In this document: piece after piece, positions 35,784 to 60,644 of the stretch
How the letters are laid out: each line of letters opens with the position of its first letter
Numbering within the stretch: position 1 is the first letter of the stretch
Assembly (NCBI GenBank): GCA_030697165.1
Contig: JAUYQQ010000021.1
Span: 62,001 to 126,000, forward strand
Length of the DNA stretch: 64,000 bases
Direction: 5' to 3'
Source: Acidobacteriota bacterium
Lineage (GTDB): Bacteria > Acidobacteriota > Vicinamibacteria > Vicinamibacterales > UBA2999
Position numbers and translations under genes: made by a program
Notes under the pieces: model-generated
What the model was told of the DNA's origin: nothing
Databases searched by the model: none
What the model saw: only the letters and a program-made list of their open reading frames with translations

Positions 35784-35801
35784 GTCCGGCTTTAGCCGGA
35801 C
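35784..35801. repeat. Dispersed palindrome gtccggctttagccggac, copy 1
   Basis: 18-bp palindrome with a 7-bp stem, between divergent genes' flanks. Exact or near copies are at 40358, 47251 and 52074. Confidence 0.75.
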
Positions 35802-40407: not shown

Positions 40408-41391
<984 letters not shown>

Positions 41392-41443: not shown

Positions 41444-42316
41444 ATGTCGCGTCACCATGTGGTGTCGTCATCCGAACTGCAGTCGCTGCGCGACCTGGAG
41501 CTGGTCACGCGCACGACGGTCGAGGGACTGCGGCAGGGACTGCATCGCAGCCCGTTCCACGGCTTCAGCGCCGAGTTCAGCCAGTACCGGCATTACCGGC
41601 ACGGTGATGATCTGAAGTACGTGGACTGGAAGGCGTTCGCGCGGACCGATCGGCTCTACACCCGCCAGTTTCGCGAAACCACCAACCTGTCGGCGCTGTT
41701 CGTGCTCGACGTCAGCCGTTCCATGAACTTCGGCGGCAAGTTCGATCTGGCCCGGCAGGTCACGGCCATCCTCGGCACCCTGGTCCTGGACCAGGGCGAC
41801 GCCGCCGGCGTAATCGCCGTTGACGATCGCGCGCGGCTGGTGCCGCCACGTAGCGGTCACCATCACCTCCGGGTGTTCCTGGCGCAGGTCGGCCAGCTGG
41901 CGCCGACCGGCGAGGCGAGCCTTGGGGATGCGCTGCGGAGGGCCGCCACCGTGATGAAGCGGCGCGGCCTCGTGATCGTCGTGTCGGATCTGTACGAAGA
42001 AGCGGAGGCGCTGCCGCAGGTGCGCCGGCTGGCCCGCATGGGGCACGACGTCGTCGTGATCCACACACTGGCTCGCGAAGAGTTGACCCTTGATGTCGGC
42101 GGTGCGGCGGAGCTGGTCGATCTCGAAAGCGGTCGTTCGCTGATGGTGCAGCCGTCGGCCGTGCGCGACGGCTACGTGGCGGCGGTGCGGCAATGGCTGA
42201 CGTCGGTGCACGATGCGGTGACTGGCGACGGCATCGAGTACCTGCGGCTGGTCACCGGCGAGCCGCTCGAGCCGGCGCTGCGGCGTTTCCTGACGCGGCG
42301 GCGGGGCTGCGGGTAG
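41444..42316 (+). CDS. DUF58 domain protein (VWA-like)
   Basis: A 290-residue protein with the DUF58 signature HGFSAEFSQYRHYRHGDDLKYVDW (F-x-x-x-R-x-Y-x-x-G-D-D-x-R/K-x-I/V-D-W) at about 39-62. A VWA-like fold follows with the MIDAS-type VLDVSRSMNFG and IVVSDLYEE. Partner of MoxR in the Bat/MoxR cluster. Start ATG 41444 directly follows the repeat. The next gene starts 4 bases after its stop. Confidence 0.93.
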   Translation: MSRHHVVSSSELQSLRDLELVTRTTVEGLRQGLHRSPFHGFSAEFSQYRHYRHGDDLKYVDWKAFARTDRLYTRQFRETTNLSALFVLDVSRSMNFGGKFDLARQVTAILGTLVLDQGDAAGVIAVDDRARLVPPRSGHHHLRVFLAQVGQLAPTGEASLGDALRRAATVMKRRGLVIVVSDLYEEAEALPQVRRLARMGHDVVVIHTLAREELTLDVGGAAELVDLESGRSLMVQPSAVRDGYVAAVRQWLTSVHDAVTGDGIEYLRLVTGEPLEPALRRFLTRRRGCG

Positions 42317-42320
42317 CCGC

Positions 42321-43475
42321 ATGTCCATTTCCTGGCTCGCGCCGGCGGTCATGCTGGGCACGGCGCTCGTCGCCGTGCCGATCGCGATCCACTTGCTCGT
42401 CCGTCAACAGGGCCGGCGGGTGGCCTATCCGTCGCTGCGTTTCGTGTCGCCCTCGGCCCTGGCGGCGTTTCGCCGGCGAACGGTGCAGGATGCCGCACTC
42501 CTGGCCTGCCGCATGGCCATCATCGTGGCTGCCGTGCTTGCGCTCGCAGGGCCCGTGCTGCAGACCGAGGCACGCTCGGCGGCCCACCGCAACCGGGTTG
42601 CCCGGGCGGTGATTGTCCTGCCCGGGACGCCCCCAGAGGCGGCGGAGGATGCAGCGGGCGAGGCCTTCGTATCGCGAGCCTTCACGCGGGCCAATCTCGA
42701 TGATGCGATCGCCGATGCCGTCCGGTGGCTCGGCGAGCAGCCGCCTGCCAGCCACGAAGTGCTGTTCACCGGTTCCGCCCGCCGCGGCCAACTCACCGCT
42801 GCCGGCTTGCAGGCCATCCCACTGTCCATGGGGATTCGCTTCGCGACGACCACCAGCGCGGTGACCGAACGCGACGTGGTGCTGCCGATTTTGCGCCGAC
42901 AGGACGGCGCGCTCGTGCTCGAGCAGCGGCGGGTGCACCTTGCGGACGACGAGACGCGCGTGGCCGCCGGCCCCTCGACCCCTGCACCGGACGACCTGCT
43001 GCGGATCGAAGCCGCGCCGGCCGATCGCGCGCTGGCGGACGCGGCCGTCCGCGCTGCACTGGAAGACGGTGTGCGCTGGTCGCAGCCGGAGCGGCGGGTG
43101 CTCGTGGCGTGGGAAGGTGCGGACGAGGCCGCCGTGCAGCGAGTCGCAAACGGCGCCACGCTGATCCGCATGAGCCGTCCCGAACCGGCGTCGAGCGCGG
43201 CTTCGGCGGTGATCGCCGCCGTTGAGCAGGTCACTGCGCCGCCGTCCGACCGCTTGGAGCCGGTTCGAATTGACGATGCGCAACTGCAGGCGTGGACGCG
43301 CGCGCCCGGCGGAGTACCGGCAGAGGCGCGGCCGGCCGACGAAGGTGACCGCCGATGGTTCTGGGCGCTCGCACTGGCGTTACTGGCGCTCGAGCACGTC
43401 CTTCGCCGCGCCGCCACGCGGCCCGCGGCCGCCGAGGCCACCGTGGAGGGTGATGTGGAGGCCCGCGTTGCCTGA
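42321..43475 (+). CDS. BatA-type N-terminal domain membrane protein
   Basis: A 384-residue protein. Residues 1-75 are the aerotolerance-regulator N-terminal module: SWLAPAVMLGTALVAVPIAIHLL, then QGRRVAYPSLRFV and a second helix LLACRMAIIVAAVLALAGPVL. The long middle (80-345) is soluble and presumably extracytoplasmic, with an Ala-rich VWA-like pattern but no intact MIDAS. A last helix (WFWALALALLALEHVL) lies near 350-365. Its 3' end overlaps the next gene by 23 bp. Cluster context assigns it to the Bat-type complex. Confidence 0.85.
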   Translation: MSISWLAPAVMLGTALVAVPIAIHLLVRQQGRRVAYPSLRFVSPSALAAFRRRTVQDAALLACRMAIIVAAVLALAGPVLQTEARSAAHRNRVARAVIVLPGTPPEAAEDAAGEAFVSRAFTRANLDDAIADAVRWLGEQPPASHEVLFTGSARRGQLTAAGLQAIPLSMGIRFATTTSAVTERDVVLPILRRQDGALVLEQRRVHLADDETRVAAGPSTPAPDDLLRIEAAPADRALADAAVRAALEDGVRWSQPERRVLVAWEGADEAAVQRVANGATLIRMSRPEPASSAASAVIAAVEQVTAPPSDRLEPVRIDDAQLQAWTRAPGGVPAEARPADEGDRRWFWALALALLALEHVLRRAATRPAAAEATVEGDVEARVA

Positions 43476-45501
43476 CACCCGCGTCCTCGCCGGCGTCGAA
43501 CGCGTGCGCCTGCGCATGCGCGTGCGCAACGTCGTCTGGAGCGTGACGGCGGGCGCAGCCACGGCGGGGGCGGTCGGCATGATCGTAACGCTCGTGGGCC
43601 TGTCAACGGCTCCACGGTGGCTGTTGGCCGTCGTGGCCGGCAGCGTCATGGCGTTCCTGTTGACCCGCAGGGCCGGGGGCGCGACGCCGGCAAGGGCGGC
43701 GGATCTGATCGAGCGTGAAGCCTCGCTCGACAACCTGATTGTGACCGCGGCGGAGTTGCAGGCCCGTCCGCGACCCGTGCGCGCGGATATTCGCGCCGAG
43801 ATCGTGAGGCAGGCCGAGGCCCGGCTCTTGCTCGTGGACGCGACGCACCTGGTCCCGCTCCGCCAGCCCATGGCCGTCATGTCGGCGGTGCTCGCCGGCG
43901 CGTTCGCCGTGCTGACCATCGGCCCCGAGTCCGTTCCGCGCTTGCCGGGCGCGATCGGTGGCGCGGTGCAGGCGAGCACGCGGGGGATCGACAGCATGGC
44001 CGTCCACATCACACCGCCGGCGTACTCCGGCCGCCCGGCGGAGTCGCTGGCCGATCCGGTGCAGATCACCGTGGTGGCGGGCAGCCGCATTCAGTTGGTC
44101 GCGGCATCGGCCGCCGATGGGATGGTTGCGGAGATCGCCGGCCAACCGCCGTTGACGATGACGCGCGCCGCCGAAGGGTTCAGCGGCGAATGGGTCGCGG
44201 AGCAGTCGACCGCTGTCGCCATTCGTCCGGCCGGTGGGGAAGGCCGCGACGTGAAGTTCTTGTCGGTGATTGTTGTCGCCGATGCGCCGCCAGTCGTGCG
44301 CATGCCGCAACCCGGAATGGACCTCGCGATGTCCGGGACCAAGGGCCGCATCACCATCGGCGTCGATGCGCAGGACGACCTGGGGCTGGCCTCGTTGTCG
44401 GTGCGGTTCACGAAGGCGTCGGGCGGCGGCGAGTCGGTGACCTTTACCGAGGGCGAGGTGCCGCTGGCGATCACCCGCAGCGATGGCCGTCATTGGCGCG
44501 GCCGGGCCGAGTGGGTGCTTGACGGCCTGAGCCTGACCGATGGCGACGTGCTGGTGTATCGCGCGATCGCCCGCGACCGCAACCCCAACGGTACTCCCGT
44601 GCAGTCGGACCAGTACCTGATCGAGGTGGGCCGCCTGGCCGGTGCGGTGGGTTCTGGATTTGCGTTGCCGGCCGAAGAGAAGAAGTTCGCCATCAGTCAG
44701 CAGATGGTGATCTACAAGACCGAGCAGCTGATCGCGTCAGTGAAGGGCAAGCCCACCGGCGACCGTGGTCCAGACTGGCTGGAGCAGAACCAGATGCTGG
44801 CAATCGAGCAGCGGATGGTGCGATCTGAGGTGGTGTTTCTGAGCGGCGGCGAGGTACAGGACGAAGTGGAAGAGGCGGCGCACTCGCACGAGATTGCCGA
44901 GGGCCGGCTCGAGAACTCGGGCCGTGCCGAAATGGTGCGCGCCCTCAACTTCATGTCGCGGGCCGAAACGGAACTGAATGCCGGGCGCGCGGTGGCAGCG
45001 TTGGCCCTCGAGCGCGAGGCCCTCAAGGCGCTGGAGCGGGCCTTCGATCGCCGCCGGTATTTCCTGCGCACCCTGCCCGAGCGCTCGCGCATTGACACGA
45101 CGCGCCGGTTGACCGGCAACCGCACTGAAGCCCGCCCGTGGGTGCGCGACCGCGGCCGGGTCGAGGCGCCACCCGGCCTGGCGCGTACTCGTGAGCTGAT
45201 GCACGCACTGGCGGCCGCCTCCAACGTCGCGATGGGTGCCGACGCCGCGCTGGCGGCGAAGGTCGCGGCCATCGATCCGGCGGACGCCTCGTTGCAGAAG
45301 GCGGCGGTGGCGCTGGCCACCGCCGCCGATGAACGCACGCGCCGCGAGGCCCTGTGGGCCGCCATGCAGGCGGTGACGGCGCATGCCATCAAGGGGTTGG
45401 GTTCGGCGGGTGAGCTTCACCTGCAGATTGATCCCTTGGCCGGCCGGCTGGCCGACGAGATGGCCGAAGAGAGGGCGCGTTCCCGGAAGGGCAGCCGATG
45501 A
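43453..45501 (+). CDS. DUF4175-like membrane protein of the MoxR/Bat cluster
   Basis: A 682-residue protein. Start ATG 43453 lies inside the end of the preceding gene (TTG 43468 is an alternative). It has two membrane helices near the N-terminus (SVTAGAATAGAVGMIVTLVG, LLAVVAGSVMAFLL) and a third at about 140 (AVMSAVLAGAFAVLTIG). A periplasmic beta region opens with MAVHITPPAYSGRPAE (typical of DUF4175). The C-terminal half is helical and charged (NQMLAIEQRMVRSEVVF, EMVRALNFMSRAETELN). Likely a large scaffold of the MoxR-associated complex. It overlaps the next gene by 4 bases. Confidence 0.82.
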   Translation: MWRPALPDTRVLAGVERVRLRMRVRNVVWSVTAGAATAGAVGMIVTLVGLSTAPRWLLAVVAGSVMAFLLTRRAGGATPARAADLIEREASLDNLIVTAAELQARPRPVRADIRAEIVRQAEARLLLVDATHLVPLRQPMAVMSAVLAGAFAVLTIGPESVPRLPGAIGGAVQASTRGIDSMAVHITPPAYSGRPAESLADPVQITVVAGSRIQLVAASAADGMVAEIAGQPPLTMTRAAEGFSGEWVAEQSTAVAIRPAGGEGRDVKFLSVIVVADAPPVVRMPQPGMDLAMSGTKGRITIGVDAQDDLGLASLSVRFTKASGGGESVTFTEGEVPLAITRSDGRHWRGRAEWVLDGLSLTDGDVLVYRAIARDRNPNGTPVQSDQYLIEVGRLAGAVGSGFALPAEEKKFAISQQMVIYKTEQLIASVKGKPTGDRGPDWLEQNQMLAIEQRMVRSEVVFLSGGEVQDEVEEAAHSHEIAEGRLENSGRAEMVRALNFMSRAETELNAGRAVAALALEREALKALERAFDRRRYFLRTLPERSRIDTTRRLTGNRTEARPWVRDRGRVEAPPGLARTRELMHALAAASNVAMGADAALAAKVAAIDPADASLQKAAVALATAADERTRREALWAAMQAVTAHAIKGLGSAGELHLQIDPLAGRLADEMAEERARSRKGSR

Positions 45502-47225
45502 GTCGCGACGCTCTCGTTCGTCTCGGGTTGCGCACGGTGGCCGCGGCGATCGCGGTCGCGGCGATTGCCGACCCGGTCCTGACGGTCTCACGGCCCGTGC
45601 CCCATCGGGTCGTGGTGGCTCGCCTTGCCTCAGCCAATGTCGAGGCCGAGGAGGCCGCCATCCGGTCGGCGCTGCCGGGCGCCGACATCAGCGTGAGGGC
45701 CGCGAGCCATGGCCGCGTGCCCTGCGCGCCGGGCGAGTCGTGCGTGATCCTGGCCGATGGTTCGGTTGCCGCGGACTGGCCCGACGACCTCGAGGGGCCG
45801 GTCTCGCTGATTCGCGTGGGCACGCCCGCCGGCCCGAACGTGGCGATTCAGTCGGCGCTGGTCGCGCCCGCGCAGAGTGCGGCGGCATCCGGGGTTGTCC
45901 TGGCAACGCTCACAGGCACCGGCATGGCCGGGCGCCGAACCGAGATCCGAATCACTGATGGCGCCGCCACGGTGGGCTCGGCCGTCCACGAGTGGACCGC
46001 CGATGGCGAGGCCGCCATCGAGGTCGCGTGGTGGCCGCTTGGCGACGGCCCGCGCGCGTTGCGGGTGGCCGCGCTGCCGTTTGATGGCGAGGCGTCTGCG
46101 ATCGACAACGCGATCAACGTCGGGGTGACCGTCAACTCGCACCGGACGCGGGTGCTGGTGTTCGAGGCGCGGCCATCGTGGGCCAGCGCCTTTGTGCGGC
46201 GGGCCCTCGAGGACGATCCCCGTTTCGAGGTGGAGCATCGAGTCGGGCTGGCGCCCTTTCTGGTGGCCGGCACGTCCGGCACCCGGCTGACGGTGCCGAC
46301 GCTGGACGCCGTGCCAATCGTGGTGGCCGGCGGCCTCGACGGCCTGGGCGCGGGCGAGGTGTCGCTGCTCGAGCGATTTGTCCGCGAACGGGGAGGCACG
46401 CTGATCCTCGTGCCAGACCGCGAGATCGCGGGGGCCGCTGCGCGACTGGTGAGCGGCCAATGGACGGAACACCTGGAGGCGTCGCCATCGGCAGTCGGCC
46501 GGTTGCGGGCAAGTGAAACGCTGCGCCTCGTTCGCGCCACACCGTTCGACACGGTGCTGGGCGCCATCGCGGACCGGCCCGTCATGGTCGTGTCGCCCGT
46601 CGGCCGCGGCCGGGTGGTGGTGTCGGGGGCGATGGATGCGTGGCGGCACCGGGATGCCGATGGCGGCGCGTTCGATCGCTTCTGGCGATCGCTGGTTCTC
46701 GAGTCAGCCTCCGCCGGCGAGGCTCTGCAGATCGATGTCCGGCAGCCGATCGCGGCGCCCGGTGCCCACGTTCCGTTCACCGTGCGTCACCGTCTCATGG
46801 AGGGCGCGCGGCCCCGCACCGTGACGGCGTCGGCCGCTTGCGGCGCTGGCGTGGCTGGGCCGATCCGGTTATGGCCGCACGGGGCGACAGGGGTGTTCAA
46901 CGGAGCGGTTCCCATGGAGGGCGGCGAGCCGTGCGAACTGCGGGTCGAGGTTGAAGAGGGACCGGTCGCCGCTCGCGGTATCGCGGTGACGACCGGCGCC
47001 ACGGGCAGCGTGACAGCAGTGATGCGAGAACTCGAGCGAATCGCGGCGCACAGCGGCGGCGGAATCGGCGACGCAGGGACGGCGACCGAGACGCTGGCCG
47101 GAATGCTGCAACCAGGTGCGGCGCCAACGCCATCTCATCCAATGCGTTCACCCTGGTGGATGTCTCCATTTGTCGCCTGCCTCGGTCTCGAGTGGTGGCT
47201 GCGGCGCCGTTCCGGACTGAGGTAG
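45498..47225 (+). CDS. Membrane protein of the MoxR/Bat cluster (VWA/GATase-like fold)
   Basis: A 575-residue protein starting in ATGA overlap with the preceding gene. An N-terminal helix (LRTVAAAIAVAAIADPVLTV) and a short C-terminal helix (WWMSPFVACLGLEWWL) frame a large soluble region. A segment HRTRVLVFEARPSWASAFVRRALEDDPRF and later IVVAGGLDGLGAGEVSLLERFV resemble the glutamine-amidotransferase-like part found in Bat-cluster membrane proteins, with no catalytic Cys. It is the last gene of the operon and is probably a structural partner. Confidence 0.78.
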   Translation: MSRDALVRLGLRTVAAAIAVAAIADPVLTVSRPVPHRVVVARLASANVEAEEAAIRSALPGADISVRAASHGRVPCAPGESCVILADGSVAADWPDDLEGPVSLIRVGTPAGPNVAIQSALVAPAQSAAASGVVLATLTGTGMAGRRTEIRITDGAATVGSAVHEWTADGEAAIEVAWWPLGDGPRALRVAALPFDGEASAIDNAINVGVTVNSHRTRVLVFEARPSWASAFVRRALEDDPRFEVEHRVGLAPFLVAGTSGTRLTVPTLDAVPIVVAGGLDGLGAGEVSLLERFVRERGGTLILVPDREIAGAAARLVSGQWTEHLEASPSAVGRLRASETLRLVRATPFDTVLGAIADRPVMVVSPVGRGRVVVSGAMDAWRHRDADGGAFDRFWRSLVLESASAGEALQIDVRQPIAAPGAHVPFTVRHRLMEGARPRTVTASAACGAGVAGPIRLWPHGATGVFNGAVPMEGGEPCELRVEVEEGPVAARGIAVTTGATGSVTAVMRELERIAAHSGGGIGDAGTATETLAGMLQPGAAPTPSHPMRSPWWMSPFVACLGLEWWLRRRSGLR

Positions 47226-47235
47226 AGTTCTTGTC

Positions 47236-48873
47236 ATGCCGTCAGAAAAGGTTCGGCTAAAGCCGGACACCACATTGCCGGACGCTACCTCGAGGCGAGA
47301 CTTCGCAAAGATACTCGGGCTCGGCACCATTGGCCTCAGTCTCGGGCCGTCGGTGTTCGCCCGGCAAACCACCACACCCTTTCCGGCCATCAAGAATCCG
47401 AAGTATCGGACCTGGTCTGAAGATGCGCTGCGCGAGGCGAAGCGCCTCGGGTGCACCTACGCCGACATTCGCTTCACCTTGAACCGGTCGAACGGCGTCG
47501 CCGTGCGCAACGGCGACATCCAGAGTGGTGGCAGCGTCGGCTTCGGCCAGTTCGGTGATGTCGATACCTACGGGTTCGGCGTTCGCGTGATTCACTCGGG
47601 TGTGTGGGGATTCTCGAGCAGTCCCAACGTCACCCCGGAAGAGATCAAGCGCATCGTCGCCTTGGCGACCGAAGTCGCCAAGGCCAGCGCCACGGCGAAA
47701 AAGTTCGACGTGCGCCTGGCGCCGGTGAAAGCCTACGACACGTTCTGGGAGACGCCGATCAAGGTCGATCCGTGGAGCATTCCGCTGGAGGACAAGGTCG
47801 CGTTGCTGGTCGATGTCACCCGGACGATGCAGAAGACTCCCGAGGTGATCTCGGCGGACGCGGCGGTGAACTTCAACTACGAGTGGAAGTACCTGGCCAC
47901 TTCCGAAGGTTCGTTCATCGAGCAGGTGTTCTACTACACGGCCGCGTCGATCAGCGCCACCGCCCGCAAGGACGGCGTGGTGAAGACGCGCACCTTCGAC
48001 CCCGGCACCGAAACGCGCGGGTGGGAGTTCGTCACCGACAACGACCTGAAGGGCAATGCCGAGCGCGTCGCCGCCGAGGCGGTTGAATTCGCGATGGCCA
48101 AGCCGGTGGGGTCGGGCCTCAAAGACCTGATCCTCATGCCGAACCACTCGGCGCTCACCATCCACGAGATCATTGCCCACCCGACCGAACTCGACCGCAT
48201 TGTCGGCTACGAAGCCAACTACGCGGGCACGAGCTTCGTGAAGATCAGCGACCTGGGCAAGCTGAAGTACGGGTCGAAGCACCTCAACATCACCGCCGAC
48301 CGCACCCATCCGGGCGGCGCGTCGACGGTGGGCTACGACGATGACGGGGTGGAGGCACAGAACTGGCCGATCATCCGCGACGGCATTCTGGTCGGCCTGC
48401 AGACCAACCGCGAGACCGCGCACTACATCGGCGAAACCAGTTCGCGCGGCTGCACCTTTGCCAACCACTGGCGCAACTACCCGTTCCTGCGCATGCCGAA
48501 CATCCAGATGGAGCCGGGCCCCAAGGGGTCGCCGACGCTCGACCAGATGATTGGCAGCATCCAGGACGGCGTGCTCGTGGACGGGCAGGGCAGCTTCAGC
48601 ATCGACCAGCAGCGCTACAACGGCCAGTTCGGCGGTAACTGCTTCTGGGAGATCAAGAACGGCAAGAAGACGCGGATGGTGACCGACTTTACCTACAACG
48701 CGATCTCGACGGACTTCTGGGCCAACCTCGATGCGGTCGGCCCGCCCGAAGAGTGGCAGCACATCGGCATGGGCGGCGACGCGAAAGGGCAGCCGGTGCA
48801 GTCGAACCGTCCGTCCCACGGCGCCTCGCCGATCCTGTTGCGCAAGATCATGGTCGGCACGGCGTTCAAGTAA
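47236..48873 (+). CDS. tldD: Tat-exported TldD-family metalloprotease (first of three TldD/TldE genes)
   Basis: A 545-residue protein. A twin-arginine signal SRRDFAKILGLGTIGLSLG lies at about residues 19-37, after an N-terminal extension (VRLKPDTT) encoded by a dispersed palindrome. The TldD zinc motif is intact: HEIIAHPTELDRIVGYEANYAG (H-E-x-x-x-H). A C-terminal GQFGGNCFWEIKNGK and SHGASPILLRKIMVGTAF complete the fold. The Cys that is a zinc ligand in E. coli TldD (in M-C-G-K-x-G-Q) is Gly here (GMGGDAKGQ); a nearby His in RPSHG might substitute. TldD/TldE heterodimers degrade unfolded peptides. Followed by a TldE-like gene. Confidence 0.9.
   Translation: MPSEKVRLKPDTTLPDATSRRDFAKILGLGTIGLSLGPSVFARQTTTPFPAIKNPKYRTWSEDALREAKRLGCTYADIRFTLNRSNGVAVRNGDIQSGGSVGFGQFGDVDTYGFGVRVIHSGVWGFSSSPNVTPEEIKRIVALATEVAKASATAKKFDVRLAPVKAYDTFWETPIKVDPWSIPLEDKVALLVDVTRTMQKTPEVISADAAVNFNYEWKYLATSEGSFIEQVFYYTAASISATARKDGVVKTRTFDPGTETRGWEFVTDNDLKGNAERVAAEAVEFAMAKPVGSGLKDLILMPNHSALTIHEIIAHPTELDRIVGYEANYAGTSFVKISDLGKLKYGSKHLNITADRTHPGGASTVGYDDDGVEAQNWPIIRDGILVGLQTNRETAHYIGETSSRGCTFANHWRNYPFLRMPNIQMEPGPKGSPTLDQMIGSIQDGVLVDGQGSFSIDQQRYNGQFGGNCFWEIKNGKKTRMVTDFTYNAISTDFWANLDAVGPPEEWQHIGMGGDAKGQPVQSNRPSHGASPILLRKIMVGTAFK
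47251..47268. repeat. Dispersed palindrome (gttcggctaaagccggac) inside coding sequence, copy 3
   Basis: Inverse-orientation copy of the 35784/40358 palindrome with one changed stem base. It encodes the first residues of the TldD protein at 47236. Confidence 0.7.
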
Positions 48874-48879
48874 CGGTTC

Positions 48880-48918
48880 CCGACTCCCGACTCCCGACTC
48901 CCGACTCCCGACTCCCGG
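48880..48918. repeat. gactccc tandem repeat
   Basis: Five units of cgactcc(c) fill the gap between the first two peptidase genes. The same unit occurs within the methyltransferase gene at 12034-12065. Confidence 0.85.
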
Positions 48919-48932
48919 CAAGGATCATTGAA

Positions 48933-50288
48933 ATGGCTTATTCACGAGACGAGATCAAGCAGATCACCGACAAGGTGCTCAACATGTGCAAGGCCGACGC
49001 CGTCGAGGTCCGGTTTTCGGGCGGCGAGCGGTCGGCGACACGGTTTGCCAACTCCAGCATCACCGCCAACCTGATCGAGCACGACCAGGAAGTGCAGATC
49101 ACGGTGCGCTACGGGCAGAAGTCGGCGAGCGCGACGACGCACCAGTTCGATGACGAGTCGCTGACGCGGACCATCGACGCGGTGCAGGCGCTGGCGCGGC
49201 GCAAGCCCGACAACCCCGAGTTGATGCCGCTGGTGAAGCCGCCCCAGACCTACATCGAGGTGGACGCGGCGTCGCCGTCGGCGATCGCGTTTGGTCCGGC
49301 CGAGCGCGCGAAGATGGTCAAGGCCAGCACCGACATCTGCGAGAAGAAGGGCGTGCTCGGCGCCGGCTACATTCCCAAGTTCGACTGGGTGGACGCGTCG
49401 GCCAACTCCGCCGGCCTGTTCACGTACTTCCACTATGCGGATGCCAGCTTCATCCTGACCTGCCGCACGCCGGACCAAACCGGCTCGGGCTGGGCCGGGA
49501 CGACCGGGGTCAAGGACATCAAGAACATCGACGCCGAGATGCTGACCAACGTGGCGGCCGACAAGGCGCTGCGGTCGCGCAAGCCGCGGGCGATTGAGCC
49601 CGGCAACTACACCGTGATTCTCGAATCGCGGCCGGCCGCTCGCTACCTGTCGCTGATCCTGGGAGCGCTCAACGCGCGCAATGCTGAGGAGGGCCGCAGC
49701 TTCATGAGCGGCAAGCAGCGCGGCGAGACGCGCCTGGGCGAGAAGGTGTTTGGCGACAACTTCACGCTGCGCAGCGAGATCGGCAACCCGGTCCTGCGCC
49801 AGAGCCCGATCGGTCAGGACGGCCTCGCCGCCAAGAGCGTGACCTGGATCGAGAAGGGCGTCGTCAAGAACCTGTTCTACGACCGCTTCTGGGCCAACCG
49901 CCAGAAGAAGGAGCCGACCGCCACCACCCCGGGCATGAGCCTGGTGATGGAAGGCGGCACGACCAGTGTCGAGGAGATGATCAAGAGCACCAAGCGCGGC
50001 CTGCTGGTGTCGTTCTTCTGGTATATCCGCGGCGTGGACAACATGACGCTGCTCAACACCGGCATGACGCGCGATGGCCTGTTCCTGATCGAGAACGGCG
50101 AAATCGTCGCCCCGGTGCAGAACTTCCGCTGGAACGAATCGCCGGCGGTGAGCTTCAACAACATCTCGGCGCTCGGCCCGGCCATTCCCATGCACACCGG
50201 CGAGGCCTACGACAACCCGGGCACGGCGCTGGTGCCGGCCATGAAGCTCGAAGATTTCACCATGACGTCCATTTCCCCGGCGGTCTAG
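48933..50288 (+). CDS. TldE/PmbA-family protein without signal peptide
   Basis: A 451-residue protein starting at ATG 48933 with RBS-like aagga. It has the TldD/PmbA two-domain fold: VEVRFSGGERSATRFANSSIT (N-terminal), AARYLSLILGALNARNAEEG (pseudo-active helix), GTTSVEEMIKSTKRGLLVSFFWYIRGVD and FLIENGEIVAPVQNFRWNES. The H-E-x-x-x-H motif is absent from the helix where TldD carries it, so this is the non-catalytic TldE type. It lies between two Tat-exported TldD genes but has no export signal of its own. Confidence 0.88.
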   Translation: MAYSRDEIKQITDKVLNMCKADAVEVRFSGGERSATRFANSSITANLIEHDQEVQITVRYGQKSASATTHQFDDESLTRTIDAVQALARRKPDNPELMPLVKPPQTYIEVDAASPSAIAFGPAERAKMVKASTDICEKKGVLGAGYIPKFDWVDASANSAGLFTYFHYADASFILTCRTPDQTGSGWAGTTGVKDIKNIDAEMLTNVAADKALRSRKPRAIEPGNYTVILESRPAARYLSLILGALNARNAEEGRSFMSGKQRGETRLGEKVFGDNFTLRSEIGNPVLRQSPIGQDGLAAKSVTWIEKGVVKNLFYDRFWANRQKKEPTATTPGMSLVMEGGTTSVEEMIKSTKRGLLVSFFWYIRGVDNMTLLNTGMTRDGLFLIENGEIVAPVQNFRWNESPAVSFNNISALGPAIPMHTGEAYDNPGTALVPAMKLEDFTMTSISPAV

Positions 50289-50293
50289 AGCGC

Positions 50294-50352
50294 GGGCAAC
50301 CCTAAAGGGTTGCCCCCACCGACGATTGTGGAGGCAACCCTTTAGGGTTGCC
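50294..50352. repeat. Two copies of palindrome ggcaaccctaaagggttgcc
   Basis: Copy 1 (50294-50315) and copy 2 (50333-50352, with ttt in the loop) stand in opposite sense, so they can each fold or pair together. They fill most of the gap between the second and third peptidase genes and may attenuate transcription. Confidence 0.75.
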
Positions 50353-50364
50353 TGGAGACAGCAA

Positions 50365-51945
50365 ATGAAGAGAAGAGATTTCGTCAAAACCCTCGGCGCC
50401 ACCGGCGTCGCCCTCTACGCCAGCGACCTGGTCGGCGACCTGATCGCCCAGTCGCCCCGGGGCCGCGTCATGGAATCGCGCTTCAAGGGCCTGTCGGACA
50501 TCGCGCTGTCAGAGGCCAGGCGCCTCGGCTGCAGCTACGCTGACATCCGCTTCACCCGTAACGTCAACGACAGCGTCGCCGTTCGCGACCGTATTGTCAC
50601 CGACTCGTTCGGCTTCGGCGCCGGCGGCATGGAGACCAGCGCCGGCTTCGGCGTGCGTGTCATCCACAGCGGCGTGTGGGGCTTTGCCAGCAGCCCGTTC
50701 GTGACCGAGGGCGACATCAAGAAGATCACCGCGCTGGCCACGGAAGTGGCCAAGGCGAGCGCGATCAGCAAGCGTTTCGAGGTCAAGCTGGCGCCGGTCC
50801 AGGCCTACCAGGATTACTGGGCGGCCAAGGTCGAGCAGAAGCCAGAGGACGTATCGCTCGACGACAAGATCGCGTTCCTCATGAAGATCAACGAGGCGGC
50901 GCTCAAGGTGCCCGGCGTGATCCGCGTGCAGTCGAACATGGCGTTCGACTTCGAGTGGAAGTATCTCGCGACCTCGGAGGGTTCCTACATCGAGCAGGAG
51001 ATCTACCGCACCTCGCCGGGCTTCACGGTCACCGCCCTCAAGGACGGCAAGGCCAAGTCGCGCACCTTCTCGGTGGCGCCGAAGTCGGCCGGCTACGAAG
51101 TGGTGCTGAACGCGAAGATGCTCGAGAACGTCGAGCGCATTGCCGCCGAGGCGGTGGAGCACTGCACCGCGCCGCCCGCGGGCGTGGGCCTCAAGGACCT
51201 GATCATGACGCCGGCGCACGCCATGCTCACCATCCACGAGATCGTCGCGCACCCCACCGAACTGGACCGCGTCGTCGGCTACGAGGCCAACTACGCCGGC
51301 ACGAGCTTTGTGAAGGCGTCGGATGTCGGCAAGCTGATGATGGGCTCGAAGCTGTTCAACGTGACCTGCGACCGCACGCTCGAAGGTGGCATGTGCACGG
51401 TGGGCTATGACGATGACGGCGTGAAGTCGCAGTCGTGGCCGCTGATTCGCGAAGGCAAGCTGGTGGACCTGCAGACCAACCGCGAGACGGCGCACTACAT
51501 TGGCCAGAACACCTCGAAGGGCTGCACCTTCGCGACCTCGTGGCGCAACTACCCGTTCCTGCGCATGCCCAACGTGCATGTCGATGCGGGTCCGCCGGGA
51601 TCGCCGACGCCGGAAGAGATCATCGCCGACACCAAGGACGGCATCCTGATCGACGGCCGCGGCAGCTACTCGATCGATCAGCAGCGCTACAACGGCCAGT
51701 TCGGCGGCGACGCGTACTGGGAGATCAAGAACGGCAAGAAGACGCGGATGTTGAGCGACGTCACCTACAACGCCATCACCACCGATTTCTGGCAGAACCT
51801 CGACGCGACGTCAGGGAAGGAATCGTGGGAGATGTTCGGGACCACCGGCGACGCCAAGGGACAGCCGGTGCAGATCAATCACCCGTCGCACGGCTCACCC
51901 TGGTGCCGCATTCGCCGCATCATGGTTGGCGCCGCGTTCTCGTAG
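50365..51945 (+). CDS. tldD: Tat-exported TldD-family metalloprotease (third of three)
   Basis: A 526-residue protein, clearly paralogous to the gene at 47236. The N-terminal Tat-like signal is MKRRDFVKTLGATGVALYAS. The zinc motif HEIVAHPTELDRVVGYEANYAG is intact. C-terminal GQFGGDAYWEIKNGK (Cys of the first paralogue replaced) and HPSHGSPWCRIRRIMVGAAF follow. Like the first copy it lacks the M-C-G-K-x-G-Q cysteine (TTGDAKGQ). ATG 50365 begins the Tat signal directly. A strong terminator hairpin follows, so the three peptidase genes probably form one transcript. Confidence 0.9.
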   Translation: MKRRDFVKTLGATGVALYASDLVGDLIAQSPRGRVMESRFKGLSDIALSEARRLGCSYADIRFTRNVNDSVAVRDRIVTDSFGFGAGGMETSAGFGVRVIHSGVWGFASSPFVTEGDIKKITALATEVAKASAISKRFEVKLAPVQAYQDYWAAKVEQKPEDVSLDDKIAFLMKINEAALKVPGVIRVQSNMAFDFEWKYLATSEGSYIEQEIYRTSPGFTVTALKDGKAKSRTFSVAPKSAGYEVVLNAKMLENVERIAAEAVEHCTAPPAGVGLKDLIMTPAHAMLTIHEIVAHPTELDRVVGYEANYAGTSFVKASDVGKLMMGSKLFNVTCDRTLEGGMCTVGYDDDGVKSQSWPLIREGKLVDLQTNRETAHYIGQNTSKGCTFATSWRNYPFLRMPNVHVDAGPPGSPTPEEIIADTKDGILIDGRGSYSIDQQRYNGQFGGDAYWEIKNGKKTRMLSDVTYNAITTDFWQNLDATSGKESWEMFGTTGDAKGQPVQINHPSHGSPWCRIRRIMVGAAFS

Positions 51946-52762: not shown

Positions 52763-53046
52763 CGGTCCTCCTGTGGGCTTCCGTGCCCGACACGGTTTGA
52801 CCTATCAAGTTCAGTGCCAGCCGTCCTGGGGCAAAACCCCGCGATTTCGGCCAACTATTGGAACCAGCGGGAGCAACCCTGGTCATCGGGCATCCAAGTG
52901 GGGATTGGGGCCGTGAGCTGACCCAGCTCGGGCACTGTTTGGGTAATCCGCTGCCAACAGTCGGCAGCACTGGCGAGCGAAGGCGCCAACTGAGCAGGCG
53001 TGTTCTTTGCATCGACCGGCTGAGTTTCCAGCAAAGGACCAATTTC

Positions 53047-56000
53047 ATGCACGTGGCTCGGAAGACGACCGGAAGCAAGATGCGCGCAGCGGCCGCAGGC
53101 ACCGACATCCTCGACCAGAAGCGGTTGTTGAGTGTCCTGTCGAACTACGAGCGCGGCGATTTCGCGGTGCGGATGCCCGAAGACCGCACCGGCCTGGCCG
53201 GCAAGATCTGCGATGCGCTCAACTGCACGATTGAGCGCAACGAGCGCCTGGTCAAGGAACTGGAGCGCCTCAGCACCGTCGTCGGCAAGGCCGGCAACGT
53301 CAAGCAGCGCGCCCAGATGCCGTATGCCGAAGGCAGCTGGAGTACTGCGATCGAGTCGGTGAATGCGCTGGTCTCGGACCTGGTGCAGCCGACCACGGAA
53401 GTGGCACGCGTCATTGGCGCGGTGGCCAAGGGTGACCTGACGCAATCGATGTCGCTCGAGATTGACGACCGCCCGCTGACCGGCGAGTTCTTGCGCACCG
53501 CCAAGGTCGTGAACACGATGGTCGCGCAGCTGGGCACCTTCTCCTCGGAAGTCACCCGCGTGGCCCGCGAAGTGGGCAGCGAGGGCAAGCTGGGCGGGCA
53601 GGCGGTCGTCAAGGGCGTGGCCGGCACCTGGAAAGACCTGACCGACAACGTCAACCTGATGGCGGCCAACCTGACCAGCCAGGTCCGCAACATCGCCGAG
53701 GTGACCACGGCCGTCGCCAAGGGGGACCTGTCGAAGAAGGTCACTGTCGACGTCAAGGGCGAGATTCTCGAGCTGAAGAACACCGTCAACACCATGGTGG
53801 ACCAGCTGAGCTCGTTCGCCTCGGAAGTGACCCGCGTGGCGAAGGAAGTCGGCACCGAAGGCCAGCTGGGTGGCCAGGCCGACGTGCGCGGCGTCGCCGG
53901 CACGTGGAAGGACTTGACCGACAACGTCAACGCCATGGCCGGCAACCTCACCGTGCAGTTGCGCGACATGTCGAAGGTCTCGAGCGCCATCGCCAGCGGC
54001 GACCTGTCGCGGAAGATCACGGTCGATGCCCGTGGCGAGATTCTGCAGATCAAGGACGTCATCAACACGATGGTCGACCAGCTGAGCTCGTTCGCGTCGG
54101 AAGTGACGCGCGTGGCGAAGGAGGTCGGCACCGAAGGCAAGCTTGGCGGCCAGGCCGAAGTGGTCGGCGTCGCCGGCACCTGGAAGGACCTGACCGACAA
54201 CGTCAACGGCATGGCCAGCAACCTGACCAACCAGGTGCGCAACATCGCCGACGTGACCACCGCCGTGGCGCGTGGTGACCTCTCCAAGAAGATCACGGTT
54301 GACGCCCGTGGCGAAATTCTCGAGCTGAAGAGCACCGTCAACACGATGGTCGATCAGCTGAGCTCGTTTGCCTCCGAAGTGACGCGCGTCGCCAAGGAAG
54401 TGGGCACCGAAGGGCAATTGGGCGGCCAGGCCGACGTGCGCGGCGTCGCCGGTACCTGGAAAGACCTCACCGACAACGTCAACGAACTGGCCGGCAACCT
54501 GACCGTGCAGTTGCGCGACGTGTCGAAGGTGGCCACCGCCATCGCCACCGGCGACCTGAACCAGAAGATCACGGTGCAGGCGCAGGGCGAGATCCTGCAG
54601 ATCAAGAACGTCGTCAACACCATGACCGACCAGCTGAACGCGTTTGCGTCGGAAGTGACGCGCGTGGCGCGCGAAGTCGGCACGGAGGGCAAGCTCGGTG
54701 GCCAGGCCGACGTGCGCGGCGTCGCCGGCACCTGGCGCGACCTGACCGACTCGGTCAACTCCATGGCCGGCAACCTCACCGGCCAGGTGCGCAACATCGC
54801 CGAAGTCACCACCGCGGTAGCCCGCGGCGACCTCTCCAAGAAGATTACCGTCGACGTGCGTGGCGAGATTCTCGAGCTGAAGGACACCGTCAACACCATG
54901 GTGGACCAGCTCAGTTCGTTTGCGGCCGAAGTGACCCGCGTCGCGAAGGAAGTGGGCACCCAGGGTGAGCTTGGCGGCCAGGCCGACGTGCCCGGGGTCG
55001 GCGGCACCTGGAAGGACCTGACCGACTCGGTCAACTCGATGGCCGCCAACCTGACCAGCCAGGTGCGCAACATCGCCGAAGTCACGACCGCCGTGGCCCG
55101 CGGCGACCTCTCCAAGAAGATCACCGTCGACGTGCGCGGCGAGATTCTGGAGCTGAAGGACACCGTCAACACCATGGTGGACCAGCTCAGTTCGTTCGCC
55201 GCCGAAGTGACCCGCGTCGCGAAGGAAGTGGGCACCGAAGGCAAGCTGGGCGGCCAGGCCGGCGTGCCCGGCGTCGCGGGTACCTGGAAGGACCTGACCG
55301 ACAACGTCAATCGCCTCGCCGCCAACCTCACCACCCAGGTCCGCGCCATCGCCGAGGTGGCCACCGCCGTCACCAAGGGCGATCTGTCGCAGTCGATCAA
55401 CGTCGAAGCGGCCGGCGAGGTGGCGGCGCTGAAGGACAACATCAACGAGATGATCGTCAACCTGCGCGAGACGACCGAGAAGAACACCGCGCAGGACTGG
55501 CTGAAGACGAACCTCGCGAAGTTCACGCGCCTGCTGCAGGGGCAGCGCGACCTGGCCACCGTGTCGCGCACCATCCTGTCGGAACTGGCGCCGCTCGTGC
55601 CGATGCAGCACGGCGTCATCTACTTCAACGAGTCGACGACCGAAGCGCCGGACCTGCGGCTGCTGGCCAGCTACGCCTATGCCGAGGGCGAGAACCGGCG
55701 CACGCGTTTCCGCGCCGGCGAGGGCCTGGTCGGCCAGGCCGCGGTCGAGCGCCAGCCGATCCTGCTGACCGACGTGCCCCACAACTACGTGCAGATCAGT
55801 TCCGGGCTGGGCGCCGCCGCGCCCACCAACATCTTCGTCGTGCCGGTGCTCTTTGAGGGAAAGGTCAAGGCCGTCATCGAGCTGGCCTCGTTCTACCGCT
55901 TCAACGACACCCACCTGAACTTCCTCGGCCAGCTCACCGAGTCAATCGGCATCGTCCTCAACACGATCACGGCGACGATGCGCACCGAGGAGCTGCTGAA

Positions 56001-58203
56001 GCAGTCGCAGTCGCTGGCGACCGAGCTGCAGAAGACCAACGAAGAACTGGAAGAGAAGGCCGAGCTGCTGGCCACCCAGAACGCCGAAGTGGAGCAGAAG
56101 AACTTCGAGATCGACCAGGCGCGCCTGTCGCTCGAAGACAAGGCGGCGCAGCTGGCGCTGACCTCGCGCTACAAGTCCGAGTTCCTGGCCAACATGTCGC
56201 ACGAACTGCGGACGCCGCTCAACAGCCTGCTGATCCTGTCGCGCCTGCTGGCGCAGAACACCGAGCAGACGCTTACCGACAAGCAGGTCGAGTTCGCCAA
56301 GACCATTCACGCCTCCGGCTCGGACCTGCTCGAGCTGATCAACGAGATTCTCGATCTGTCGAAAATCGAGTCGGGCATGATGGACGTGGATGCCGTCCCG
56401 GTGTCGCTCGCCCAGGTACAGTCGTACGTCGAGCGCACCTTCCGCGAGGTGGCCGGCAGCAAGGGCCTGCATTTCTCGGTGGACCTCGACCCGCGCGCGC
56501 TGCAGTCGATCATCACCGACCAGAAGCGCGTGCAGCAGGTGCTCAAGAACCTGCTCTCGAACGCCATCAAGTTTACCGAGCACGGGGCGGTGACGCTGAC
56601 GATCGAGCCGGCCACGACCGGCTGGACCCCCGGCCATTCCTCCCTCGATCGCGCCACCAACGTGGTGGCCTTTCGCGTGGACGACACCGGGATCGGCATC
56701 GCGTCCGACAAGCACCAGGTCATCTTCGAGGCGTTCCAGCAGGCCGACGGCACGACCAGCCGGAAGTACGGCGGCACTGGCCTCGGCCTGTCGATCAGCC
56801 GTGAGATTGCCAAGCTGCTCGGCGGCGAGATTCGCCTGAACAGCGCGGTCGGCAAGGGCAGCAGCTTCACCCTGTACCTGCCGTCGGTCTACGTCGCGGC
56901 CCTGACCGCGGGCGAGCGCGCCGAGGTGCCGGTCGAAAGGCGACTCGCCGTCGACCGCGCGCTGGCCGCCGAGGACACGCCGGTTGACGACAACCCGCTG
57001 CACGACGACCGGTCGCTGATCGAGCCGGGAGACCCGGTGCTGTTGATCATCGAGAACGACATGGCCTTCGCCCGGATCCTGATGGACCTGGCGCGCCAGC
57101 GCCAGTTCCGCTGCCTGGCCTCGGTGCGCGGCGACATCGGGCTGCAGATGGCCCGCCAGTTCCGCCCCGACGCCATCACCCTCGACCTCGACTTGCCGGG
57201 GCTCGACGGCTGGAACGTGCTCGATCGGTTGAAGCACGATCCCAGCACCCGCCACATCCCGGTCCATGTGATCTCGGTCACCGACGATCCGCGCCGCGGC
57301 ATGCGCCTCGGTGCCAAGACCTTCGTGGCGAAGCCGTCGGACGCGGATGAGCTGGGCGCGGCGTTCGAGGCCATTCGCGAGTTCAACGACCGGAAGATGA
57401 AGACCCTGCTGATCGTCGAAGATGACGAGGTGCAGCGGGGCACGCTGGTCGAGCTGATTGGCGACCGCGACGTCCAGATCACCGCGGTTGGCAGCGGCCG
57501 CGAGGCGATGGCCCAGCTCACCGAGCAGCAGTTCGACTGCATTGTCCTGGATCTCGGATTGAGTGACATGAGCGGCCTCGACCTGCTCGAACAGATGCGG
57601 TCGGACCGCGCCCTGTCGCAGGTTCCGGTGATTGTCTACACCGGCAAGGAGCTGTCGCGCAGCGAGGAGGTCGAGCTGCGCCGGCTGGCCCAGACCATCA
57701 TCATCAAGGACGTCCAGTCGCCCGACCGGTTGCTCGACGAGACCACGCTGTTCCTGCACCGGGTCGAGAGCGCCTTGTCGCCCGACAAGCAGCGCCTGCT
57801 CGACCAGCTCCACCGTAGCGATCCCACCCTGACCGGCAAGAAGGCGCTGGTCGTGGACGACGACATCCGCAACATCTTCGCGCTGACCAGCATCCTCGAG
57901 CGGTATGAGATGGACGTACAGTATGCCGAGAATGGCCACGACGCGTTGCGGCTGCTTGGCGAGAACCCCGACATCGACGTGGTGTTGATGGACGTGATGA
58001 TGCCCGAGATGGATGGCTACGAGGCCACCCGGCGCATTCGCGATAACAGCACCTTCGAGGACCTGCCCATCATCGCGATTACCGCCAAGGCCATGAAGGG
58101 CGATCGGGAGAAGTGCATCAGTGCCGGCGCCTCGGACTACGTGACCAAGCCGGTCGATACCGACCAGCTGATTTCGCTGCTGCGGGTGTGGCTGTCCAAG
58201 TGA
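53047..58203 (+). CDS. Soluble poly-HAMP hybrid histidine kinase with GAF and three receiver domains
   Basis: A 1718-residue protein starting at ATG 53047 (RBS aaagga, 8 bases upstream). No membrane segment. Order: a short N-terminal helix region; eight HAMP-type repeats (from residue ~105), of which six (202-753) are exactly 92 residues each; a GAF domain (~835-985); a coiled coil; HisKA with His1052 in [11 protein letters not shown]; HATPase (N-box [14 protein letters not shown], then DDTGIGI and GGTGLGLSI). Three receiver domains follow: ~1330 ([10 protein letters not shown]), ~1451 ([15 protein letters not shown]) and ~1598 ([14 protein letters not shown]). The arrangement recalls fungal group III (Nik1/Os-1) osmosensor kinases. 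The stop overlaps the next kinase gene (GTGA). Confidence 0.95.
53650..55305 (+). repeat. Six tandem 276-bp repeats encoding HAMP units
   Basis: Unit boundaries (gtcaac codons) fall at 53650, 53926, 54202, 54478, 54754, 55030 and 55306, spaced exactly 276 bp with no indels. Long runs are near-identical between units, e.g. around aacaccatggtggaccag. A longer first unit begins at 53359 and a partial one follows 55306. Highly recombinogenic DNA inside a single gene. Confidence 0.9.
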
Positions 58204-59927
58204 GCACACCCGTCAACATCCTGGTCGTGGACGACCGGGACGAGAACCTGCTGGCCCTCGAGGCGGTGTTGAGCGATCCGGGCTACCGCATCGTGCGGGC
58301 GCGCTCGGGCCGGGAGGCGCTCAGGGAAGTGCTCGACCAGGACTTCGCGCTGATCCTGCTCGACGTGCAGATGCCGGGCGTCGATGGCTACGAAACGGCC
58401 GTGCTGATTCGCGAGCGGCCGCGGTCCCGGCAGACGCCCATTATCTTCCTGACCGCCAATGACTGGGGTTCGCAGCACGTGTTTCGCGGCTACACCGTCG
58501 GCGCGGTTGATTACCTCGTCAAGCCGGTGTCGGCGGACGTGCTCCGGTCGAAGGTCGCGGTGTTCGTCGAGCTGTTCAACAGGCAGGAGGCGCTGCGGCT
58601 GGCGCAAGCTGAGCTCGAGCAGCGGATTGCCGAGCGGACGCGCGAGCTGGCCTCTGCGAACGTCGCCCTCTCGGCCGAGGTCGAAGAACGCCGGCGAATC
58701 GAACAGGAGCGAGTCAGGCTGCTGACGCGCGAACAGGCCGCGCGCCTGGAGGCGGAAGCCGCCAACCGCTTGAAGGACGAGTTCCTGGCGACCCTGTCGC
58801 ACGAGCTGCGGACGCCGCTGAACGCCATCATGGGCTGGGCCCATGTGCTGAACCAGAGCACCGGCGATCGGCCCACGGTGCAGCGCGCCGCCGACGTCAT
58901 CCGCCAGAACGCGACTGCCCAGGCCCAGATGATCGAGGACATTCTCGACGTCTCGCGCATTGTCGGCGGCCGGCTCGTGCTCGATGCCCGCCCGGTGCAG
59001 CTGCGGGAGGTAATCGACGACGCCATCGACTCGCTGGCGCCGGCGTCAGCGGCCAAGAACATCCAGATCGTCCGCCGCCTGGCCGACGGCGTGCTCGTGC
59101 ACGGCGACCGCGACCGCCTGCAGCAGGTCGTGTGGAACCTGGTGTCGAACGCGCTCAAGTTCACGCCCAAGGGGGGCCGCATCGAAGTTGAGCTGCAGGA
59201 TGCCGACGGCGATGCGGCGATTCGCGTCACCGACACCGGCATCGGCATTGCGAGTGACTTCCTGCCGTTCGTGTTCGACCGGTTCCGGCAGGCCAACAGT
59301 TCCAAGAGCCGCCGCCATAGCGGCCTGGGCCTGGGCATGGCGATCGTGCGTCACCTGGTGGAGCTCCACGGCGGCACGGTCAGCGCCGAAAGCGCGGGCG
59401 AGGGCAAGGGCGCCACCTTTCGGCTGCGGCTGCCGCGGGGCGCCGACCTGCCCCGGGTAGCCGAAACCGCTGCGGCGCGGGTCGAGGACCGCGACGAAGA
59501 GGACGCGGCGCTCGAGCACCTGCACGGCGTGCACATCCTGATCGTCGAAGACGATGCGGATTCACGTAACGTACTGGCGCTGCTATTGCGGAAGCTGGGC
59601 GCCCTGGTGGAGGCGGTCGCGTCGGCACGCGAAGCCCTTGATCGGCTCACCGCGCGGCGGCCCGACGTGTTGGTCAGCGACATCGGGATGCCGGATGAAG
59701 ATGGCTATTCGCTGATTCGGCAGGTCAGGCAGATGCCGGCCGACCTGGCGCGAAAGCTGCCCGCGATTGCCCTGACGGCTTATGCGCGGCGGCAGGATGC
59801 CGAGGCCGCGCTTGGCGCCGGCTTCGACTGCCACCTGCCCAAGCCGGTGGCGCCGGCGGAATTGATCAGGGCGATTAAGGGAATTGTGGAAGCGTCTAAC
59901 TTGTCATCGCGTAAACCACAATATTGA
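58200..59927 (+). CDS. REC-histidine kinase-REC hybrid protein
   Basis: A 575-residue protein starting at GTG 58200 in GTGA overlap with the poly-HAMP kinase stop, so it is translationally coupled. An N-terminal receiver ([23 protein letters not shown], Lys in LVKPVSA) leads through a coiled coil (about 130-190) to HisKA ([12 protein letters not shown], His201), HATPase ([24 protein letters not shown]) and a C-terminal receiver ([21 protein letters not shown]). The receiver-first layout suggests it takes phosphate from the upstream kinase and relays it. Soluble, no sensor domain of its own. Confidence 0.93.
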
Positions 59928-60561
59928 CGCCGAAGCGGGTGTTGTCGTCGCGCTGGAAGCGCTTGTTGCGCCAGTCGTAGTCCCACTCGCAGCCGTAGTC
60001 CTTGTTCGAATACAGCACGCCCACGCGGTTGTTCACCGACACCCCTCGCAGGTAGTCGTGCACCATGTCGTCGCCCCAGCCGTTTAGTTCGTGCGCGGTC
60101 TGCGGCGGGCCGTCGGGGAATGGGAAGAACGCGCGGTACAGCGGGTGGGTGCGCGGCAGCTTGTCGAGGACGCCCGGTCCCGGAAAGGCCAGGCGCATCT
60201 CCTGCTCGAACGACGTCGCGTACAAGCCGGCGACATCGTGGTTGCAGTCGTCCGAGAACAGCAGCCCGCCGCGCTCCACGAAACGGCGCAGCTGGGCGCG
60301 TTCGGCCTCCGAGAAGCGCACCAGCTTGTGACCGGTCATGAACAGGAATGGAAAGGCGAGTAGTTCCTCGGAGTCGGCGGTGATCACGATCTCTTCCGGG
60401 TACACGGGAATACTCGTGTACTCGACGACCGAATTGAGGATGTTCGCGGCCACCTTCGGGTTGTAGTCCCAGTCCCCGGATTCATAGCGAAGGCGGGCAA
60501 ACACAAACTCGTGCGACCGTGGCTGGCCACGAACGGGGCGCGGCACCTGATCCAGCGTCAT
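59896..60561 (-). CDS. DUF4159 domain protein
   Basis: A 221-residue protein with the DUF4159 pattern: FVFARLRYESGDWDYNPKVA near the N-terminus, LLAFPFLFMTGHKLV, RFVERGGLLFSDDCN and LPRTHPLYRAFF. A GVLYSNKDYGCEWDY region and VNIVVYAM close the fold. DUF4159 proteins are usual members of MoxR/Bat clusters, but this one lies ~12 kb from the cluster at 40.4-47.2 kb. No signal peptide. The 3' end overlaps the kinase gene by 32 bp (convergent). Confidence 0.85.
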   Translation of the reverse strand: MTLDQVPRPVRGQPRSHEFVFARLRYESGDWDYNPKVAANILNSVVEYTSIPVYPEEIVITADSEELLAFPFLFMTGHKLVRFSEAERAQLRRFVERGGLLFSDDCNHDVAGLYATSFEQEMRLAFPGPGVLDKLPRTHPLYRAFFPFPDGPPQTAHELNGWGDDMVHDYLRGVSVNNRVGVLYSNKDYGCEWDYDWRNKRFQRDDNTRFGVNIVVYAMTS

Positions 60562-60644
60562 CAAATCAACGATATCAGCACTCCAGCACGTCCGCACCGT
60601 AGCACCCCAGCACCGGAGGTGGCTGGCACGGTTTGTGTTTATGG

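Follow-up and report, generated by a model that had tools for sequence, protein, structure and literature searches.

The two TldD-type metallopeptidases and the single TldE protein encoded side by side in an Acidobacteriota bacterium (UBA2999) probably assemble in the cytoplasm and are exported by the twin-arginine translocation (Tat) system, with the untagged TldE travelling as a hitchhiker. We put the probability of this reading, which is drawn from sequence comparison, at roughly 0.78. The genes lie in a 64,000-nucleotide stretch of contig JAUYQQ010000021.1, hereafter called the window, from a source genome of 5.39 Mb (labelled G000), and are named TldD1, TldE and TldD2 in the order in which they are read (Table 1). 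A TldD–TldE–TldD set with Tat signals and HExxxH on the two TldDs only had been claimed in an original prediction for this stretch, and frames, motif check and signal caller confirmed it. The trio is real, but its signals are not a property confined to trios: as judged from related loci, the trio is a local duplication within a much wider system of paired Tat-tagged TldD and TldE genes.

Gene layout, catalytic residues and fold

TldD1, TldE and TldD2 occupy three complete frames of the window, arranged head to tail with operon-like spacing. TldD1 starts either with the ATG at 47236 or with the TTG at 47275, TSRRDFAKILGLGTIGLSLGPSVFA being retained with either, while TldD2 reads MKRRDFVKTLGATGVALYASDLVGDLIAQ from 50365 and its mechanical frame opens earlier, with a TTG at 50326. 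The TldE frame, with the N-terminus MAYSRDEIKQ, begins at its domain. TldD1 and TldD2 share 58 % identity across 525 aligned columns.

All three proteins match the Pfam PmbA/TldD domains above the gathering cut-off, the two TldDs with all three of PF01523, PF19290 and PF19289 and TldE with domains 1 and 3 only; HExxxH was not found in TldE by a motif check of its sequence. Both TldDs retain the histidine pair and glutamate of this motif, the downstream glutamate and aspartate, an aspartate at the third-ligand site and the next lysine. Read by a ligand-x-Lys pattern, the third-ligand site holds Asp496 in TldD2 and the matching aspartate in TldD1, versus Cys454 in E. coli TldD. This pattern, which leaves 10 of the 194 TldDs of our survey (see below) without a ligand type, replaced an automatic column alignment in which the E. 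coli Cys454 had fallen opposite other residues. With NF008006, the NCBI equivalog model for E. coli-type TldD, TldD2 scored 68.1 bits and TldD1 57.7 bits, below the model's cut-off of 513.

TldD2 and TldE are predicted to share the fold of solved TldD and TldE structures. The predicted single-chain model of TldD2, with a mean predicted local distance difference test (pLDDT) value of 89, is best matched by E. coli TldD (5nj5_A, template modelling (TM) scores 0.75/0.82); its N-terminal helix, residues 3–29, stands apart from the confident domain, and its first 20 residues have pLDDT values of 52–54. In the single-chain model of TldE (pLDDT 94) confidence is high from nearly the first residue on, and the top three matches of this model are of TldE type, with 1vl4 leading (TM 0.83/0.87) and an E. 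coli TldD chain in fourth place.

The palindromic repeat GTCCGGCTTTAGCCGGAC and variants of it have copies at positions 35784, 40358, 47251 and 52074 of the window; matches with up to three mismatches number 13, palindromes being counted on both strands, versus 3.6 expected. The copy at 47251 sits within the TldD1 start and codes for VRLKPD of the TldD1 extension. Between TldE and TldD2, at 50295–50352, a 20-base palindrome occurs twice (GGCAACCCT..AGGGTTGCC; 0 expected by chance), and a hairpin formed from it could affect TldD2.

Twin-arginine signals among relatives

We surveyed 171 loci, namely the window, E. coli tldD, E. coli tldE and 168 others, with a content of 194 TldDs with HExxxH and 159 TldEs, six TldD-like frames without the motif being excluded. 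Nine loci duplicate others, so that 162 distinct loci remain. Tat calls were made with a pattern caller written for this analysis, which looks for a twin-arginine (RR) motif and an N-terminal hydrophobic region. It called 144 of the 181 uncut TldDs of distinct loci (154/192 with duplicate loci kept) and, after dereplication at 90 %, 120 of 159, the latter number including two cut rows. In 113 of these 120, motif position four, after RRx, is phenylalanine. When the N-terminal letters of the 120 TldDs were shuffled 200 times, a simplified caller fired on 3.3 sequences on average and on 7 at most, against 120/120 for the real ones, and among control proteins it called 0/18 MoxR and 0/20 DUF58. 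By this measure the Tat-type motif on the TldDs is not a product of chance, and its order and spacing are conserved across the phyla compared. At E≤0.1, the curated models TIGR01409 and PF10518 matched 18 and 17 of 41 TldDs of relatives, respectively, and neither matched any of the relatives' 40 TldEs. The case for a Tat signal is stronger for the comparison with relatives than it would be for the window's proteins by themselves. Together with the one TatC found in the G000 genome, the well-conserved motif supports, at the level of sequence, what the original prediction had proposed, i.e. an exported TldD that carries TldE along. Tat signals ending in a lipobox-like cysteine were seen in the TldDs of L138, L207, L208, L209, L214 and L215, which are possible Tat lipoproteins.

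TldE frames beside a Tat-called TldD numbered 128, of which 120 were distinct and 119 uncut. Signals of their own on TldE homologues had been named beforehand as evidence that would speak against hitchhiking; a convincing signal was present in none of the 119, and a lax hydrophobic extension in only two (L036 and L048). In 74 of the 119 fewer than 25 codons separate the domain from the nearest stop codon before it, which leaves no room for a signal, whatever the start. The distance from the stop of the Tat-called TldD to the start of TldE has a median of 21.5 nucleotides and is at most 100 nucleotides in 97 of 116 cases, duplicates included.

A PF19289 search was run on nine genomes, eight of which were counted (G000, G007, G008, G013, G017, G032, G038 and G050). 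Their 37 matches comprise 21 TldDs, every one of them Tat-called, and 16 TldEs, none of them called, so that a cytoplasmic TldE would be without a known TldD partner there. The ninth genome, G001, encodes on contig C232 an extra Cys-type TldD (HEAIGH, 335 bits to the TldD profile) which resembles E. coli TldD and has no RR signal at its start by eye. With contamination of G001 at 4 %, this protein may be foreign to the genome, which was therefore left out of the count.

Sorted by third ligand, duplicates included, 127 Asp-type TldDs were Tat-called, nine were not and two were cut, while Cys-type TldDs divide into 22 with and 24 without a call and unassigned ones into five and five. Among the nine are L114 and L118, which show RR signals on reading, L170, with KRK in place of RR, and L190, which repeats L135. 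The aspartate as a mark of export was dropped, as signal-less Asp-type TldDs exist and the ligand changes only three times on the tree, which makes the association of aspartate with Tat mostly a matter of descent.

Gene orders, duplication and competing explanations

Among distinct loci the most frequent order is TldD(Asp, Tat)–TldE with 67 clusters, followed by TldD(Cys, Tat)–TldE with 20, TldD(Cys, no Tat call)–TldE with 15, TldE–TldD(Asp, Tat) with 11, the TldD–TldE–TldD trio with 10 and TldD(Asp, no Tat call)–TldE with seven, one of which is cut (L127) and one of which has an RR signal on reading (L118). Hosts include the Bacteroidota Maribacter antarcticus, Saonia flava and Hymenobacter arizonensis as well as metagenome-assembled genomes of Gemmatimonadota and Ignavibacteriota. 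H. arizonensis (L142) has three consecutive TldD–TldE pairs with all three TldDs Tat-called, and in Pedobacter duraquae (L170) two TldDs flank one TldE, the first TldD beginning with KRKDF, not RR. The locus L175, titled Cyanobacteria, probably bears a wrong title, since a stretch of its TldD is shared with L059 of G007, and G007 belongs to the same genus as the window.

The tree, made by FastTree only and accompanied by long-branch warnings, contains 11 changes between Tat and no Tat after two cut rows were taken out and L114 and L118 relabelled (the initial labels gave 15), and Tat is found in the Asp branch as well as in that of E. coli TldD. TldD1 rows form a clade of eight with support 100 and TldD2 rows a clade of nine with support 82, both within one 24-row clade, with one L046 row outside both. 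As each of them holds the families f1 and f6, the duplication looks older than the split between these families.

One TldD of the trio could be the true partner of TldE and the other a redundant duplicate that is being lost, which we regard as possible, if doubtful. It would fit the absence of TldD1 from L036, L037 and L041, where TldE–TldD2 is kept, and the state of L047, which keeps TldD1–TldE followed directly by a C-terminal TldD2 remnant of ~41 codons (L047 6504–6626); going by these loci, either TldD of the trio can be lost. It would also fit L048, a trio in which, by either deletion or an assembly fault, both the TldD2 domain (364 aa matched) and the TldE domain (403 aa) fall short of their length in other trios. 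Redundancy fits less well with the 10 distinct trio genomes, in all of which HExxxH, the Asp ligand motif and an RR signal are preserved in TldD1 and TldD2 alike, or with the apparent age of the duplication, even though one of the two clades has a support of only 82. The same relatives, keeping one pair or the other, lend indirect support to the two alternative heterodimers that had been suggested for the trio.

Several observations weigh against the export of a TldD/TldE complex. The loci were picked by similarity to TldD2, so that the proportions among them do not carry over to bacteria in general. Our simplified caller also fired on 2/8 BatA proteins and 2/19 homologues of an uncharacterised 575-aa neighbour and can thus be fooled by membrane proteins; the full caller fired on 4/159 TldEs (4/150 without duplicate loci, 8 of the 150 being cut), four calls that were judged false given a start nearer the domain. 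TldD2 stays below the cut-offs of the curated Tat models, with 15.1 bits for TIGR01409 (cut-off 16.7) and 14.3 for PF10518 (cut-off 22.7), and TldD1 is unmatched by either at E≤1, for which reason the support from single sequences is moderate. In the c-regions of the 120 Tat-called TldDs, simple patterns found AxA in as few as 48, a lipobox-like cysteine in six and neither in 66, cleavage rules being loose. Asp-ligand TldDs without any signal occur in five relatives (L135, L172, L184, L186 and L193), and Tat-called TldDs without an adjacent TldE in five loci (L150, L196, L216, L219 and L227, of which L227 lies close to the end of its contig). Finally, an active TldD homodimer has been claimed for Sulfolobus, as cited in PMC5810440, which makes a TldD without TldE conceivable.

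The homodimer claim and the five loci without an adjacent TldE would suit export of TldD by itself, to act outside as a homodimer, with TldE staying in the cytoplasm in another role. We consider this improbable, since most Tat-called TldDs are adjoined by a TldE, the eight genomes show no untagged TldD for TldE to serve, TldE has retained its fold and conserved positions, and both subunits are required for activity in E. coli according to PMC5810440. The least credible alternative is that the RR-hydrophobic N-terminus fails to work in export and the proteins remain cytoplasmic, as the sub-threshold or silent curated models in the window are set against a motif whose order and spacing are conserved across phyla, which seldom arises in shuffled N-termini and which the same models detect in relatives' TldDs but in none of their TldEs.

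Joint export of TldD and TldE would combine two described properties. E. coli TldD/TldE is reported to be active only with both subunits and to form a closed shell degrading unfolded peptides (PMC5810440), and Tat is reported to carry folded complexes including untagged partners (PMC4273604, PMC10924467), hitchhiking being known from hydrogenase-2 and PaoABC (PMC4273604). From these we infer assembly in the cytoplasm, actual export and co-export on the TldD signal, and catalysis outside in the form of peptide trimming. Inside the cell TldE would fold together with either TldD1 or TldD2 to give a closed heterodimer as in E. coli, its metal likely held by the two HExxxH histidines and the aspartate standing for Cys454. 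The Tat signal of TldD would then take the assembled dimer over the inner membrane, with TldE riding untagged, and the exported dimer may trim short or unfolded peptides there. Afterwards the TldD signal could be cleaved or could anchor the protein, and some relatives may have it lipidated. A TldD held at the membrane, which we regard as less likely than not, would fit the 66 Tat-called TldDs with neither pattern and the six with a lipobox-like cysteine, and the 48 with AxA speak against it.

Genomic surroundings and known systems

Upstream of the trio the window encodes MoxR, DUF58 and BatA proteins and two uncharacterised genes, and downstream, on the opposite strand and past two kinase genes, a DUF4159 protein (Table 1). 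The first kinase frame (52858–58203), named by eye like the second, encodes a hybrid histidine kinase of great length, in which many repeats, nearly identical to one another, precede the kinase part; the frame is adjoined by a second kinase/response-regulator frame (58113–59927).

Table 1. Positions in the window of the trio and of its neighbouring genes.
Feature	Position	Strand	Remarks
TldD1	47236..48873	+	Putative Tat signal; TldD metallopeptidase; HEIIAH; Asp as predicted third metal ligand
TldE (PmbA-like)	48933..50288	+	Without signal, without HExxxH
TldD2	50365..51945	+	Putative Tat signal; HEIVAH; Asp496 as predicted third metal ligand
MoxR-type AAA+ ATPase	40408..41391	+	Recurrent neighbour
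DUF58 (VWA-like) protein	41444..42316	+	Recurrent neighbour
BatA-type membrane protein	42321..43475	+	Recurrent neighbour
Uncharacterised protein	43354..45501, start uncertain	+	No Pfam match; homologue in 16/122 distinct Tat-TldD loci
Uncharacterised 575-aa protein	45498..47225	+	No Pfam match; homologue in 17/122 distinct Tat-TldD loci
DUF4159 protein	59896..60597	-	No signal observed in the window; Tat call in five relatives

Across the 122 distinct Tat loci, MoxR was found in 18, DUF58 in 20, BatA in eight and DUF4159 in 28, with at least two of these four in 21 loci, 13 of which belong to named Bacteroidota; a Maribacter locus (L153) shows the order TldD–TldE–DUF4159–MoxR–DUF58–BatA. None of the four was found in the 37 loci without a Tat call, and for DUF4159 the difference between 28/122 and 0/37 corresponds to a Fisher p of 4e-4, uncorrected for kinship or unequal flanks. 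DUF4159 itself was Tat-called in 5 of 29 cases (L041, L099, L100, L102 and L103), that of the window not being among them. This linkage and the Tat-called DUF4159 proteins are hints, drawn from gene order, that the module faces outward, and it is a guess on the same basis that MoxR, DUF58, BatA and DUF4159 act in the maturation of TldD/TldE. In a wider scheme, which we find rather unlikely, the linked MoxR and DUF58/BatA proteins would help TldD, TldE and DUF4159 to assemble and take up metal in the cytoplasm, and Tat would export them together as a hitchhiker complex of two or three parts, the TldE of the trio being common to two TldDs of different specificity.

Beyond the original prediction, the analysis brought up the aspartate in place of Cys454, the MoxR, DUF58, BatA and DUF4159 neighbours that the window has in common with a Bacteroidota relative, and the loss of either TldD of the trio. 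TldD/TldE is reported from about 60 % of bacterial genomes (PMC10885120), and a broad Tat-tagged TldD branch, if real, would give this widespread peptidase family a second role outside the cytoplasm. It would also represent an uncommon protease pair that is exported folded on one signal, and offer a test case for hitchhiking beyond redox enzymes and for what MoxR–DUF58–BatA clusters assist. Among the open-access matches listed, as far as mostly titles and abstract openings tell, a connection of TldD/TldE with Tat export has not been recognised; in the excerpts of PMC11508158, the sole match for TldD plus twin-arginine, and of PMC8102297, the terms occur apart.

The closest known system is E. 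coli TldD/TldE (PmbA; MEROPS M103), which according to PMC5810440 and PMC10885120 has the same domains, fold and HExxxH, the glutamate and aspartate behind it and the lysine after the third ligand, and likewise pairs a catalytic TldD with a non-catalytic TldE. It differs in that E. coli TldD has no Tat signal, a Cys454 ligand and an unlinked tldE, whereas here we find putative Tat signals, a duplicated TldD and an aspartate ligand. A TldD variant of Gemmatimonas described in PMC5810440 likewise has aspartate in place of Cys454; the words periplasm and signal peptide are absent from the main text of that paper, whereas most Asp-type TldDs in our survey carry a Tat-type signal. The Tat hitchhikers HybO/HybC of hydrogenase-2 and PaoABC, as presented in PMC4273604, likewise consist of one tagged subunit with a co-encoded untagged partner, assembled prior to export as would be the case here, but their cargo is a redox enzyme, whereas ours would be a peptidase. 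The Bat/MoxR operons of Bacteroidota (PMC11834572) likewise hold MoxR, DUF58 and BatA genes together, and the link to Tat-tagged TldD/TldE and DUF4159, unmentioned in the excerpts of that paper, is present in the loci described here.

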